Part shown: piece by piece, positions 53-50,742 of the stretch
Layout: the number at the start of each line of letters is the position of its first letter
How positions within the stretch are numbered: the first letter of the stretch is position 1
Program-made: the position numbers and the translations under genes
The notes under the pieces: generated by a model
Databases searched by the model: none
What the model was told of the DNA's origin: nothing
What the model saw: the letters and a program-made list of their open reading frames with translations, nothing else
NCBI RefSeq assembly: GCF_001642955.1
Contig: NZ_LWSK01000037.1
Coordinates: 1 to 50,742 of the forward strand
Length of the DNA: 50,742 bases
Direction of reading: 5' to 3'
DNA from: Rubripirellula obstinata
Lineage (GTDB): Bacteria > Planctomycetota > Planctomycetia > Pirellulales > Pirellulaceae

Positions 53-343
53 AGGCCTGATGAAAATCATTGCAACGCAGCAAATTGGGCAAGCTGCACC
101 ATGGCAGGCAACACAAACTGGAATGCTGTGAAGCATCGCGGCAACGGCACATATCCCTGATCGCAAGTATGTAGGCCGTAGCGAGCCATAGCGAGTTACG
201 GCAATGTGCGCAACGCCGTAACTCGCTTTGGCTCGCTACGGCCTACTTTCAAGGGTCGTGACAAGTTGACAACGACACATTTTCATCAGCCCAGGCGATG
301 CCCACGCGGTTAAACAATTTAGAAAACCTTCACGGCGTGGGGC
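53..343. repeat. Composite repeat, copy A1 (about 290 bp)
   Basis: This stretch is nearly the same as 20702-20988. It runs from GCCTGATGAAAATCATTGC, through a central REP palindrome (171-246), to a right segment ending in the ACGCGGTTAAAC family sequence and GGCGTGGGGC. The right flank of the palindrome recurs in reverse orientation at 50618-50658. No open reading frame in it looks real. Positions 344-477, between this repeat and the next gene's stop codon, show nothing recognisable. Confidence 0.85.
171..246. repeat. REP-like palindrome, family 1 copy 1
   Basis: A 76-nt palindrome starts GTAGGCCGTAGCGAGCC and ends GGCTCGCTACGGCCTAC. Each half is GTAG followed by GCCGTA...TACGGC, so it resembles two facing REP units (BIME-like). 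It differs from the copy at 20820 at one base, which here makes one stem mismatch (ATA facing TTT). Confidence 0.9.
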
Positions 344-10715: not shown

Positions 10716-10771
10716 GTAGCATGGCCCCCGGGCCGTGTTTTCCATCCGCACGGCCCAGGGGGCCATGCTAC
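10716..10771. repeat. REP-like palindrome, family 2 (GTAGCATGGCCCC)
   Basis: Left arm 10716-10737 begins GTAGCATGGCCCCCGGGCC; right arm 10749-10771 ends GGGGGCCATGCTAC. The arms match except for one extra base. Each arm can fold alone as GTAG followed by CATGGCCC/GGGCCGTG, the REP layout (tetranucleotide foot plus hairpin). Confidence 0.88.
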
Positions 10772-10832
10772 ATACAGATGCGAACGTTATTGCTTTTCCG
10801 TCGTCAGCGTTCTGGAAGGCCACGTGAAAAAA

Positions 10833-10855
10833 GTAGCATGGGCCCCCGGCCCGTG
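10833..10855 (+). repeat. Single REP-like unit, family 2
   Basis: GTAG followed by CATGGGCC-CCC-GGCCCGTG, an 8-bp hairpin with one T-G pair. It has no facing partner, so it would be a lone REP. It resembles the lone unit at 24658-24681. Confidence 0.75.
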
Positions 10856-10880
10856 ATGCGATCCCTTGATGATCAACTGG

Positions 10881-10916
10881 GACGCTTCACGCGGGGTCGA
10901 CGCTTCACGCGGGGTC
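10881..10916. repeat. 18-bp tandem duplication
   Basis: GACGCTTCACGCGGGGTC occurs twice in direct tandem (10881-10898, 10899-10916). The second copy overlaps the left terminal inverted repeat of the transposase unit, so the duplication may mark an end-processing or slippage event. Confidence 0.85.
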
Positions 10917-12006
10917 AGACTCGGGTTTCGGGGTTGACGGCAACAACGGAGATGGAAATACTGCGGTTGCTTGGGTTCCACATCCCTTTTCCTGGCTTTG
11001 CTGATGCCTCGTTTTCCACGATTGCAGTACGAGAATGCGATTTACCACATCGTTGCCCGAGGTGATGGACGACGAAAGTTGTTTCACGACCAGGGACACT
11101 ATGATCGATTCACCAAGGGGCTTGTCGATGAAGTGGATCGAAGCGGTTGGGTCGTTGTCGCCTTTTGTTGGATGCCAAACCATATTCATGCATTGATCAA
11201 GACTCCCCAACCGAATCTCTGTCGGGGCATGCAGCACTGGCTCTCCGGCTACGCCAATTGGTACGCCAAGCGGAACCGCCGAACGGGCCACTTGTTCCAA
11301 GGTCGGTACAAGGCTTTTCCCGTGGAGGACGAGGGGTACTACTGGAACCTGAGTCGATACATTCACCTGAATCCCTGCAACGGTGGCAAACCGCTGGCGG
11401 AATCGCCCGAGGAGTATCGCAACAGCAGTTATCGGGGTTACGCGAGAAAAAGTTGTCAAGTCGATTGGATTGCCTACGACGACCACCATCGCTATTGGAG
11501 CGGACTCAATGGAGGCAAAGATCCCTCGACCGCGTATCGCAAGTACGTGAAAGAGGGGCTGCTGAATCCGCCCGATCCAAGCGTCGATCGGTTGAAGAAT
11601 TGGGTTTATGGCGGCGAAGACTTTCTCAAGCGGATGCTGCATTTGGCTTCGAGCGAAGAGGACTCGAAGCACAGTCGCCGAGTGCGACGGTCATCCGTGG
11701 TCACGCCCGATGCAGTCTTGAACGCGACGGCGCAGGAGTATGGAGTCTCACCGGAGGAATACTGCGGTTTCCGCAGCGGAGCGGGCGGACGCGACGTGGC
11801 GGCCTACCTTTGTCGACGATACACCTCGGCCACGCTGGCGGAGCTATCGGTCCGATTCGGACTGGGCCACCCAGACAGTTCATCTGACATGGTTAAGCGA
11901 GCCAAGAAGCTGATCGAATCAAATTCAGCGATCAAGAATCGGGTGAAGCGAATTGAAAAGCGATTGTCCTTGAAACCCGAAACCCGAGTCTGACCCCGTG
12001 CGAAGC
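10902..12006 (+). mobile_element. RAYT transposase unit with 31-nt inverted ends
   Basis: The transposase gene is bracketed by inverted repeats at 10902-10932 and 11976-12006. They match at 29 of 31 positions, and both contain GGGGTCAGACTCGGGTTT in the outward-to-inward sense. The right repeat supplies the last codons and the TGA stop of the gene. No target duplication is evident. RAYT genes are usually single-copy domesticated transposases, so recent mobility is unproven. Confidence 0.75.
11004..11993 (+). CDS. REP-associated tyrosine transposase (Y1_Tnp/IS200-like)
   Basis: 329 aa from ATG 11004 (MPRFPRLQYENAIYHIVARG, the usual RAYT start); an ATG 33 bases upstream reads non-conserved sequence. 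The HUH metal-binding motif is H60-I-H62 in WMPNHIHAL, and the likely catalytic tyrosine is Y119 in SRYIHLNP. GHLFQGRYK (95-103) is also typical of the family. The C-terminal half extends well beyond the roughly 150-residue catalytic core and ends in a helical DnaA-C-like segment (GRDVAAYLCRRYTSATLAEL). Known RAYTs cleave and join single-stranded REP hairpins next to a GTAG foot. GTAG-footed palindromes are abundant in this window, so this protein, or a relative elsewhere in the genome, may have spread them; that is inference. Confidence 0.93.
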   Translation: MPRFPRLQYENAIYHIVARGDGRRKLFHDQGHYDRFTKGLVDEVDRSGWVVVAFCWMPNHIHALIKTPQPNLCRGMQHWLSGYANWYAKRNRRTGHLFQGRYKAFPVEDEGYYWNLSRYIHLNPCNGGKPLAESPEEYRNSSYRGYARKSCQVDWIAYDDHHRYWSGLNGGKDPSTAYRKYVKEGLLNPPDPSVDRLKNWVYGGEDFLKRMLHLASSEEDSKHSRRVRRSSVVTPDAVLNATAQEYGVSPEEYCGFRSGAGGRDVAAYLCRRYTSATLAELSVRFGLGHPDSSSDMVKRAKKLIESNSAIKNRVKRIEKRLSLKPETRV

Positions 12007-12033
12007 ACCCTCCCATTTGATGGCGCTAGAAAT

Positions 12034-12116
12034 AACCACGGATGGCTTTCGCGGGACCACGGATGAGGCGCGTAGGGGCATGCCCATCCGTGGTCCCGCG
12101 AAAGCCATCCGTGGTT
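12034..12116. repeat. Perfect 32-bp inverted repeat
   Basis: Arms 12034-12065 (AACCACGGATGGCTTTCGCG...) and 12085-12116 are exact complements around a 19-nt spacer, able to form a very stable hairpin. Within each arm CCACGGATG/CATCCGTGG motifs recur. It lies just outside the transposase unit. Positions 12117-12299 beyond it contain no gene I can support. Confidence 0.9.
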
Positions 12117-12299
12117 AAACAGTGCCTAATCCGCGTCGGCCATGGCCGCCAACTGCACCGTCGTCCTGCCATGCTCTTTTTCTAGGTACGAGACAAAACA
12201 AATGGGTCAAACCTCTTTGTTTTATAGAGCGGTCCGCGACTACTGCCACGAGCAAACGATCATGTGCATCATCGAACTAAACAGTTACGAAGTCGCCGG

Positions 12300-12840: not shown

Positions 12841-12915
12841 TTAGGCCGTAGTGAGTGGAGCGAGTGACGGCGTTTTGCAGCCCTGCCGTAACTCGCTCCA
12901 CTCGCTACGGCCTAC
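12841..12915. repeat. REP-like palindrome, family 1 (GGA/TCC variant)
   Basis: A copy of the GGCCGTAG...CTACGGCC palindrome with the variable stem triplet GGA facing TCC. The left foot is TTAG instead of GTAG; the right end keeps CTAC. It lies upstream of the small exported gene. Confidence 0.88.
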
Positions 12916-18000: not shown

Positions 18001-18183
18001 GCCGTGAAGAGTTTTGGTCCCGGAAAACACGTATTCGTTCGTTTAACCGCGTGGGCATCGCTCTGCGAGTTTGGCTCTGCGAGTTTGGTTCCGCGAGTTT
18101 GGTTCCGCGTGAACGCGCGGGGCGATGCCCACGCGGTTAAACAGTTTAGAAACTCTTCACAGCGTGGGGCGATGCCCAACGCG
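18001..18183. repeat. ACGCGGTTAAAC-family inverted repeat, copy B2
   Basis: The left half contains GTTTAACCGCGTGGGCATCG and the right half CGATGCCCACGCGGTTAAAC, bounded by CCGTGAAGAG-like and CTCTTCACAGCG-like ends. Between them (about 18062-18110) a 16-17-bp unit (CTGCGAGTTTGGTT type) is repeated three times in tandem. Relatives lie at 290-343, 20648-20990, 24577-24776 and 38751-38869. Confidence 0.85.
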
Positions 18184-20647: not shown

Positions 20648-20990
20648 GACATTTGGTCCGGGAAAACACGTGTTAGTTCGTTTAGCCGCGCGGGCATTGC
20701 CTGGCCTGACGAAAATCATTGCAACGCAGCAAATTGGGCAAGCTGAACCATGGCAGACAACACAAACTGCAACGCTGGGAAGCATTGTGGCAACGGCACA
20801 TTTCCCTGATCGCCAGTATGTAGGCCGTAGCGAGCCAAAGCGAGTTACGGCAATGTGCGCAACGCCGTAACTCGCTTTGGCTCGCTACGGCCTACTTTCA
20901 AGGGCGTGACAAGTTGACAGCGACACATTTTCATCAGGCAAGGCGTTGCCCGGGCGGTTAAACAGGTTAGAAACCCTCTACGGCGTTGGG
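20648..20990. repeat. Composite repeat, copy A2
   Basis: The most complete copy of the composite element. Outer halves of the ACGCGGTTAAAC family (AGTTCGTTTAGCCGCGCGGG on the left, CCCGGGCGGTTAAACAGG on the right) enclose the GAAAATCATTGCAACGCAGC segment and the central GTAG/CTAC palindrome. The outer segments are themselves imperfect inverted repeats, so the structure is nested. There is no gene in it. Confidence 0.88.
20820..20895. repeat. REP-like palindrome, family 1 (AAA/TTT variant)
   Basis: 76 nt from GTAGGCCGTAGCGAGCC to GGCTCGCTACGGCCTAC. The stem is perfect, with the triplet AAA facing TTT and a short central loop (AATGTGCGCAAC region). It is the centre of composite copy A2. Confidence 0.92.
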
Positions 20991-22848: not shown

Positions 22849-22937
22849 GTAGGCTGGAACAAGCGGAGCGCAGTTCCGGCAATCCAACACTGGGGCAATG
22901 CAATTGCCGGAACTGCGCTCCGCTTGTTCCGGCCTAC
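22849..22937. repeat. REP-like palindrome, family 3 (GGAACAAGCGGAGCGCAG)
   Basis: The left arm starts GTAGGCTGGAACAAGCGGAG; the right arm ends CGCTTGTTCCGGCCTAC. The 35-nt arms differ at one base. Each half folds as GTAG plus GCCGGAAC...GTTCCGGC (8-bp stem, 12-nt loop), the same layout as enterobacterial REPs. It begins 18 bp upstream of the moaC start codon. Confidence 0.92.
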
Positions 22938-24576: not shown

Positions 24577-24776
24577 GCCGCGAAGGGTTTCTAAATTGTT
24601 TAACCGCGTGGGCATCGCCCCGCGCGTCCGCGCGGAACCAAACGCGCGGGGCGAAATGTAGCATGGCGGCCCCCCGCCGTGGACTCACCCCGCGCACTGT
24701 GGGGCCGCACGACGCGCGGGGCGATGCCCACGCGGCTAAACGAACGAAAACCTGTTTTCCGCGACCAAATCTCTCC
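24577..24776. repeat. ACGCGGTTAAAC-family inverted repeat, copy B4, with inserted REP
   Basis: The left half has TTTCTAAATTGTTTAACCGC and GGGCATCGCCCCGCGCG; the right half has CGCGCGGGGCGATGCCCACG, CGGCTAAACGAACG and a CCTGTTTTCC end. A family-2 REP unit (24658-24681) sits in the middle. Outside it, GCCGGCGACCTGCCCGT occurs at both 24558 and 24780. Confidence 0.85.
24658..24681 (+). repeat. Single REP-like unit, family 2
   Basis: GTAG followed by CATGGCGG-CCCC-CCGCCGTG, an 8-bp hairpin with one T-G pair. It shares the CATGG...CCGTG frame with 10716-10771 and 10833-10855 but has a different inner stem. It is inserted in another repeat. Confidence 0.75.
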
Positions 24777-24794: not shown

Positions 24795-24892
24795 GTAGCT
24801 GATCCCGCCAGGGTTCAGTCGAACGTACACTGAAACGCAACACTGAACCACGACGCTGAAACGCAACACTGAACCCTGGCGGGATCAGCTAC
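24795..24892. repeat. REP-like palindrome, family 4 (GTAGCTGATCCCGCC)
   Basis: Perfect 24-nt arms at 24795-24818 (GTAGCTGATCCCGCCAGGG...) and 24869-24892 (...CCCTGGCGGGATCAGCTAC). Each arm can fold alone as GTAG plus CTGA-CCC/GGG-TCAG. The spacer holds two copies of CTGAAACGCAACACTGAACC (24830-24849 and 24856-24875). It lies about 140 bp upstream of floA. Confidence 0.92.
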
Positions 24893-28038: not shown

Positions 28039-28125
28039 GTAGGCCGTAGCGAGCCTAAGCGAGTTACGGCAATGGCCAAGGAGGCGCGAGGATGCCGTAA
28101 CTCGCTTAGGCTCGCTACGGCCTAC
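28039..28125. repeat. REP-like palindrome, family 1 (TAA/TTA variant)
   Basis: The palindrome starts GTAGGCCGTAGCGAGCC and ends GGCTCGCTACGGCCTAC, with the stem triplet TAA facing TTA and a longer centre (ATGGCCAAGGAGGCGCGAGG). It fills the gap between two convergent genes and could act as a bidirectional transcription or mRNA-end structure. Confidence 0.92.
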
Positions 28126-38284: not shown

Positions 38285-38600
38285 TTAGGAACGTAAGACT
38301 TTTTATAGTCGCCTTTCGCTCGGGACGTCGCATCAGTTACTGCGTGCTAGGCCCGGAGGGCCGGCAGCTCCCTGCCGGGTGCGAGAGCACCCGGATGGCT
38401 GCCACACATCAATTCTCTGTCTCGGTTTCGCGGCTACGCCGCGAAACCGAGCCAGAGAATTGGTTACAGAGAAAAAGTGAGAGATAACGCTGCCATCCGG
38501 GGATTTACATCCCCGGCAGAGAGCTTCCGTCCCGCCGGGACTATTCACGACGGCAGTAATTAATACGTAGTCCCCTGCGAAAGGCGACACTTATTCCCCG
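38285..38600. repeat. Long repeat family C, copy 1
   Basis: It shares with 50404-50612 the ordered blocks GACTTTTTATAGTCGCCTTT, CGCTCGGGACGTCGC, TGCCGGGTGCG, GCACCCGGATGGCTGCC, ACATCAATTCTCTG, GAGAAAAAGTGAGAGATAAC and GGGGATTTACATCCCCGGC. The ends of this copy carry a 12-bp inverted repeat (GTCGCCTTTCGC 38308-38319; GCGAAAGGCGAC 38577-38588), so it looks like an intact unit. Copy 2 lacks the right arm. The middle has several GC-rich hairpins, including one around the CCGAGCCAGAGAATT section. Confidence 0.88.
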
Positions 38601-38752: not shown

Positions 38753-38869
38753 GTGAAGAGTTTCTAAATTGTTTAACCGCGTGGGCATCGCCCCGCGCGC
38801 TGTGGGGCCAGCACGACGCGCGGCGCGATGCCCACGCGGCTTAACGAACTAATCCGTGTTTTCCGGGAT
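38751..38869. repeat. ACGCGGTTAAAC-family inverted repeat, copy B5
   Basis: CCGTGAAGAGTTTCTAAATT, then GTTTAACCGCGTGGGCATCG, faces CGATGCCCACGCGGCTTAAC, then CGTGTTTTCC. The short centre (GCGCTGTGGGGCCAGCACGA) is almost shared with copy B4. Sequence 38870-39040 between it and the next gene shows no supported feature. Confidence 0.85.
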
Positions 38870-50617: not shown

Positions 50618-50742
50618 GATGAAAATGCGTCGCTGTCAACTTGTCACGACCCATGAAAGTAGGCCGTAGCGAGCCATAGCGAGTTACGGCGGTGCGCGCA
50701 TTGCCGTAACTCGCTATGGCTCGCTACGGCCTACGTGCTGCC
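50618..50742. repeat. Composite repeat, copy A3 (reverse orientation), contig edge
   Basis: GATGAAAATGCGTCGCTGTC and AACTTGTCACGACCC are the reverse complement of the right flank of copies A1 and A2. They lead into a complete GTAG/CTAC palindrome (50659-50734) with stem triplet ATA facing TAT. The window ends 8 nt later, so the far flank is missing. Confidence 0.9.

Follow-up and report, generated by a model that had tools for sequence, protein, structure and literature searches.

The window, i.e., the whole stretch of DNA that we analyzed (50,742 nt), is contig C239 of a 6.58-Mb draft genome (G000) in 307 contigs. Three of the nine window ORFs that were scanned contain DUF1552, PSCyt1 with PSD2 to PSD5, or DUF1559, domains of planctomycete type, as the name PSCyt1 itself indicates. 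The window also holds several families of palindromes and a gene for a Y1 (HUH) transposase (Table 1).

Table 1. Repeats, transposase gene and inverted arms in the window
Feature	Positions	Strand	Remarks
Family A REP dimer (GTAGGCCGTAGCGAGCC..)	171..246	.	GTAG facing outwards
Family A REP dimer	20820..20895	.	
Family A REP dimer	28039..28125	.	
Family A REP dimer	50659..50734	.	
Family A variant (A2) dimer	12841..12915	.	feet TTAG + GTAG
Family B REP dimer (GTAGCATGG..)	10716..10771	.	closing arm 10763
Family B half-unit	10833..10855	+	
Family B-like half-unit	24658..24681	+	between arms of family E palindrome
Family C REP dimer (GTAGGCYGGAACAAGC..)	22849..22937	.	
Family D REP dimer (GTAGCTGATCCCGCC..)	24795..24892	.	
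Family E palindrome	18041..18142	.	feet GTTTAAC, not GTAG
Family E palindrome	24598..24741	.	feet GTTTAAC + GTTTAGC
Family E palindrome	38771..38845	.	feet GTTTAAC + degenerate
Y1 (HUH) transposase, 329 aa, TIRYT-like	11004..11993	+	weak DnaA_C-like C-terminal stretch
Left inverted arm with GGGGTCAG	10902..10940	+	
Right inverted arm	11968..12006	-	overlaps 3' end of transposase ORF

A first-pass annotation of this DNA had listed palindromes of families A, B, C and D; all their positions were confirmed, and every one with two arms opens with GTAG and closes with CTAC. The list was selective, however. The 14 strongest palindromes of the window divide into seven with GTAG feet (including those at 12842, where one arm has TTAG, and 28032, where GTAG lies 7 bases inwards) and seven without (at 12033, 12953, 18041, 24598, 26141, 38410 and 38777), and the A2 dimer is an addition to it. 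The stems had been described as unrelated, but A and C have GTAGGCCG in common, and their RAYTs are 61% identical. Relative to mechanically called ORFs of the window, the five A-type copies and the D dimer lie outside all those of at least 100 aa. The ORFs overlapped by B and C are short and may not be real.

Three other arrangements in the window deserve mention. At 24598-24741, the B-type GTAGCATGG half-unit between the arms of family E looks like a REP inserted into a REP. The family F palindrome at 12033-12117 has perfect 33-bp arms (TTTAACCACGGATGGC), with GTTTAACC as its right foot but not as its left. At 38410-38462 there is a palindrome with 25-bp arms and a 3-base loop (CAATTCTCTGTCTCGG..), similar to others in other stretches.

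The window's transposase matched PF01797 with 49.2 bits. Its score with the NCBIfam model REP_Tyr_transpos (50.5 bits) was below the cut-off of 80, but the RAYTs of families B (65), K (40.6) and D (35.2) missed that cut-off too, meaning that this score alone decides little. The match to Bac_DnaA_C (22.3 bits, E 1.3e-4) was likewise below the Pfam cut-off of 31.5, and DnaA models gave E values of 2e-6 and 8e-6, far under their cut-offs. The 39-nt inverted arms around the gene are 87% complementary and contain GGGGTCAG, so that they are long arms with GGGGWSAS, as in some TIRYTs; the exact 15-base arm motif occurred twice in the genome sample described below, both times in these arms. Judged by its weak DnaA-C-like tail together with these arms, the protein is TIRYT-like and of another clade than the GTAG-associated RAYTs. 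The gene presented at first as a RAYT is a Y1 transposase, but one with inverted GGGGTCAG arms. Within its 3.3-kb locus we found no GTAG REPs on both sides, family B being present upstream only; downstream come the F palindrome and then, about 850 bases off, the degenerate A2 copy.

Arms were also seen at transposases on C237 (GGTGTCAGGTACC) and C90 (with GGGGTCAG). On C237, a full and a shortened copy of one TIR-type transposase (L002/L005) lie about 1.6 kb apart, with GGTGTCAGGTACC arms.

GTAG as a common foot of six repeat families

Repeats were surveyed in 40 stretches of the genome plus the window (673,076 bases, the 673-kb sample). Six of the 40 stretches had been picked for their transposase genes, and the foot count was redone without them. 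The sample yielded 165 inverted repeats, far more than expected by chance, as a single dinucleotide-preserving shuffle gave 0; their commonest start was exact GTAG (34/165). They grouped into 35 clusters, 17 of which had at least two members; GTAG was the majority outer tetramer in 6 of these 17, more often than any other tetramer, and it stayed on top without the transposase-picked stretches (4/11 clusters) and when the window was removed too (4/9). With one representative per cluster, both arms considered, GTAG tied with AACC (6/35 each).

When hairpin cores were taken without their foot and the four preceding bases were read, GTAG was found directly before the core in 34/35 cases for family A, 18/20 for A2, 40/48 for C, 46/49 for D, 38/40 for J, 9/9 for B and 6/6 for K (673-kb sample; a motif D2 overlaps D, and its count was not added to D). 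The family half-units thus have the foot in 83 to 100% of cases, compared with a background GTAG rate of 0.0018 per position. The same test returned other feet for other families, namely GTTT for E (52/56), TCCC for G (11/15), TAGT for L (20/29, with GTGT in 8) and TACA for M (5/5), and no clear foot in the eight cores of family F in the sample. These counts show that GTAG is a genuine common foot of six families (A, B, C, D, J and K), in agreement with the proposal of several REP/BIME families with one foot, although other palindromes of the genome, and of the window, do not have it.

The predicted layout of the half-units, GTAG plus hairpin, was also observed: in all seven units folded as DNA, GTAG was unpaired and the stem began at once or one base later, with a 2x2 internal bulge in A and a mismatch in D. 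In the family E fold, GTTTAAC was unpaired ahead of the stem (z -2.1). Half-units of M and G folded no better than shuffles. Families A, B, C and D combine an unpaired GTAG beside a short hairpin with high copy number and dimers of opposite orientation, as GTAG REPs do, B being rarer (9 core matches in the sample).

Transposases associated with the GTAG families

The genome gave 11 matches to PF01797 and, at E up to 10, 20 matches to NF047646, 2 of them over the family cut-off. Four RAYTs of this genome are flanked on both sides by one GTAG family: that of family A (C33) has six A dimers to one side and two to the opposite side, that of C (C306) is flanked by five C dimers and one, that of K (C266) by three K units and four, and that of B (C13) by B arrays. 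The complete sister genome G002 contains the RAYT of family J (C1:1726076), which lies between a single J unit and a set of four. The RAYT of D was found in another genus (G215:C150:54463), between three D units and two. The idea that the families might be served by one or more RAYTs can now be narrowed, as each GTAG family has a RAYT of its own, in this genome for four of them (A, B, C, K) and only in relatives for two (J, D); the window's transposase is not among these RAYTs. For the GTAG families of the window, such a flanked RAYT therefore exists in this genome for A, B and C, and only in G215 for D.

Several other loci were examined as possible partners and discarded. A pair of D units 650 bases apart on C44 had no Y1 gene among its ORFs, a J cluster on C68 lay among ORFs that look like ordinary genes, and a D pair at G021:C5 had no HUH frame between its members. 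For families F, G and L, the flanks examined revealed no partner. A transposase on C281 has a GTAG family of its own (GTAGCCGAGGTTGTCCCAACCTCG). The transposases on C301 and C35 do not fit neatly. Around the C301 gene the repeats are GTCTAGGCTTTAGCCGA-like and for the most part have no GTAG, although GTAG precedes two of the upstream copies. The C35 protein (L009), with GTAGCNGCCA segments nearby, was left out of the count since its family support was weak (14 and 28.9 bits in two profile searches).

Further observations concern other transposases and repeats of the genome. A class-3-like Y1 gene (L192, G000:C241) lies inside a dense CGGCTCACAATTTGTGAGCCG array, C241 being the family M locus, and an IS200-type transposase (L001, G000:C244) lies amid long arrays of CCGGTGGCTGCGCC and TAGGCCCGGAGGGCC palindromes; TAGGCCCGGAGGGCC also occurs at window position 38348. 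In L026, L039, L046 and others we noticed a cluster of eight palindromes (ATTGCAAATTGCAAAATGAACA..), mostly of 100 bp, perhaps a MITE. Finally, L064, L065 and L066 (G000:C1, C266 and C2) are Y1-like open frames of 265 to 407 aa with weak NF047646 matches, i.e., another transposase type, and none of the searched REP motifs was found on both of their flanks.

Copy numbers were strongly dependent on the genome. Exact A cores numbered 612 here and 0 in 21 other genomes of the same genus; exact C cores numbered 266 here, with 1 elsewhere among the same-genus genomes. For these two families, then, abundance in relatives lacking any RAYT, which would have spoken against the proposal, was not seen. 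D and J, abundant here though their RAYTs were found only in other genomes, speak partly against a tight link between repeat and RAYT. Exact D cores numbered 203 here, and a joint D+J pattern was found 287 times here, 44 times in G002, 4 times in G021 and once in G003. D was present in only 4 of 241 family genomes (G215, G041, G000 and G021), from three genera, suggesting that the D REPtron has spread horizontally.

The E. coli TnpA-REP (4er8) and the family A RAYT matched with an E value of 2.9e-41. Section 12 of PMC6006769 names W94, Q95, E100, H101 and R104 for GTAG recognition, the role of W94 being unclear there. Numbered as in 4er8, our contact pattern Q-x3/4-[FYWHL]-[ED]-[HR] (Q95, E/D100, H/R101) was written after seeing this genome's proteins. 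It was present in 27 of 29 K/J-type proteins and in all of the genome's own A, B, C and P proteins and the G215 D RAYT, and it was rare or absent in E-type (1/24), class 3 (0/3) and TIR-type (0/3) proteins, as well as absent in the C301 and IS200-type proteins. R104 varies in the K/J and C RAYTs. The window's transposase retains Q95 but has K100 and A101 instead of E/D100 and H/R101.

In a tree of 67 proteins, the GTTTARC (99/95), TIR (99/96) and class 3 (100/96) types each occupied one side of a branch, and the E-type clade joined this genome's class-3-like proteins (98/92). The GTAG readers did not form a single branch (two changes, with a weak deep fork, 46/65), and the tree tool flagged several joined long branches.

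We consider it very probable that the GTAG...CTAC palindromes are REP dimers, each family having been spread by its own RAYT, with the window's transposase in another clade and family E likely made by the GTTTARC clade discussed below. This reading draws on the anatomy, copy numbers, flank association, residue pattern and tree observed here. In it, the palindromes are non-autonomous, BIME/REPIN-like dimers, whose half-unit consists of an unpaired 5' GTAG and then a hairpin. The family's own RAYT (a Y1/HUH transposase), which most likely spread it, would read GTAG via residues common to the GTAG-associated RAYTs and the hairpin via family-specific contacts, and would then cut and rejoin single-stranded DNA beside the hairpin. 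Different stems could go with one foot because the transposase clade would set the foot, whereas the individual enzyme would set the stem. Binding and cutting at these feet, and mobility, are presumed by analogy with the E. coli enzyme, for whose activity GTAG is crucial according to passages of PMC8266576.

What counts against one RAYT per family is that no RAYT to match D (203), J or E (432) is present here: the NF047646 search (E up to 10), in which all 29 of 29 candidates received a score, found no D-, J- or E-type gene in this draft. The split of the GTAG readers in the tree, the variable R104, the misfits on C301 and C35, and the E-type loci given below that lack GTTTARC or contain GTAG also weigh against the overall reading. 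Possibly one RAYT reads several families, D and J still being served here by the K-type RAYT, since the partners of D, J and K are all of the K/J type. We regard this as rather unlikely, because in other genomes D repeats and J repeats each flank a RAYT on both sides, and only K was found in the K locus among 16 motifs searched. Very improbable is a role of the palindromes as transcription terminators or as other signals in RNA or DNA, with GTAG incidental. The position of the five A-type copies and of D outside the longer ORFs of the window would suit such a role, and strong hairpins are able to end transcripts, but species-limited copy numbers (as for A), repeat arrays around RAYT genes and a foot so well kept outside the stem speak against it. 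Hardly credible, finally, is service of all four GTAG families in trans by the window's transposase, which is a Y1 enzyme with Q95 about 150 bases from a B half-unit, but has inverted GGGGTCAG arms as its own flanks and K100/A101 in place of the E/D and H/R pair, whereas the repeats of A, B and C flank other RAYTs on either side.

The window's transposase, with its GGGGTCAG arms, no GTAG REPs on both sides and no GTAG-contact pattern, was rejected as the server suggested at first and is unlikely to be the partner of the GTAG repeats; a tempting local inference from the nearest transposase is thereby corrected.

The GTTTARC foot and its transposase clade

In the sample of this genome, GTTTARC directly preceded the core of family E in 49 of 53 cases. 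Exact E copies numbered 432 in this genome. G002 has 112, and there E units flank an E-type transposase gene (C1:5222399) on either side.

We searched 241 family genomes with two protein alignments, A3 (K/J-type RAYTs) and A2 (E/M-type proteins), obtaining matches in 95 and 116 genomes, respectively; at most 13 candidates per genome were scored, and absence in these searches is not firm. Flank tests used the best-scoring loci. Among the best 30 K/J loci, one was dropped for short flanks, and 26 of the 29 usable ones had segments common to both flanks, with GTAG in 26/26 and GTTTAAC in 0/26. The best 30 E/M loci gave 26 usable ones, of which 24 were E-type and 22 had shared segments, with GTTTAAC in 20/22. 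GTAG also occurred in 12/22 of the E-type loci, versus a mean of 8.2 in a random-segment control that was contaminated, having been drawn from flanks holding the same repeats (means of 11.9/26 for GTAG in K/J loci and 8.3/22 for GTTTAAC in E loci).

A collection of titled genomes contained 388 stretches encoding an E-type relative. The best 80 were kept, 79 of them planctomycete and 1 Vicinamibacteraceae by the names in their titles. Usable flanks were available for 75, and 70 had shared segments to test, which contained GTTTARC in 58/70 loci (12/70 being without it), GTTTAAC in 32 and GTAG in 21. GTTTARC was present in both flanks at 53 of the 75 loci and missing from at least one flank at 22. 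Of 19 permuted patterns used as controls, the best reached 2 loci; the reversed pattern reached 0, and 100 shuffles of the flanks gave a mean of 0.6 (highest 4). GTAG[TCG] was found in both flanks at 47/75, below the shuffled-flank mean of 67.3. With distance from the query, GTTTAAC dropped (20/27, 8/24, 4/24), GTTTARC less so (22/27, 15/24, 16/24).

The 20 bases after the foot folded at -2 kcal/mol or lower for a fraction of 0.70 of 256 GTTTARC feet, versus 0.21 before the feet and 0.25 at random, and the commonest triloops were GNA and ANC. The E-type proteins have Y---NP, with Y172, N176 and P177 invariant in 11/11, and not the Y----Q of class 3.

The presence of GTTTARC in the flanks of a distinct Y1 clade means that feet go with transposase clades, whereas stems differ. 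Family E of the window was probably made by this further clade. More broadly, Planctomycetota probably carry a third REP superfamily, tagged with GTTTARC instead of GTAG or CGTC and having a Y1 clade of its own (Y---NP, YGFWLPNDPRGSWS N-terminus) without the GTAG contact residues; alongside the GTAG, TIR and class 3 types, it would make the foot a clade-level code and the stem an enzyme-level one. Few enzymes have a worked-out RAYT-to-REP recognition, and with feet that change between clades and stems that change within them, the code becomes directly testable, here including a REP class with a transposase that bears no resemblance to the GTAG readers in its contact residues.

Comparison with known systems

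Passages of PMC3733652 (see also PMC2817692 and PMC3686654) describe a GTAG REP superfamily with RAYT/TnpA-REP proteins, several families per genome and repeat-specific REPtrons; R. baltica appears there with several REP families and, with others, with a "plethora" of transposase genes and flanking repeats. Compared by description rather than by family consensus, our families agree in the GTAG foot, hairpin, head-to-head dimers, number of families per genome and repeat-specific REPtrons, and differ from that account in that each of six is matched to a RAYT. The GTAG part is therefore known in kind, planctomycetes included. The GTTTARC class and its transposase clade were not found in the published literature searched, and this is the part worth following.

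Section 16 of PMC3733652 reports that some TIRs of TIRYTs share GGGGWSAS, and section 12 of PMC6006769 reports a TnpA-Y1 subclass 2.1 for which no REPs were found, with a DnaA_C or other HTH tail. The window's transposase resembles both in its GGGG[AT][CG]A[CG] arms (here GGGGTCAG), weakly DnaA_C-like C-terminus and lack of REPs on both sides, but its DnaA_C match is below the Pfam cut-off (22.3 vs 31.5 bits), and the sample contains no further copy of its exact arm.

TnpA-Y1 class 3 is placed by section 27 of PMC6006769 principally in Planctomycetes, Acidobacteria and Proteobacteria, with Y----Q and a CnGA foot. The E-type clade is similar in being mostly planctomycete (best 80 of 388 stretches) and in joining class-3-like proteins in the tree, but has Y---NP and GTTTARC in place of the Y----Q and CnGA reported there. 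The CGTC superfamily, according to sections 6 and 16 of PMC3733652, has the foot CGTC and is not associated with transposase genes. The GTTTARC class is, like it, a tagged REP of non-GTAG type; unlike the CGTC repeats as described in those sections, it has the foot GTTTARC and comes with a transposase.
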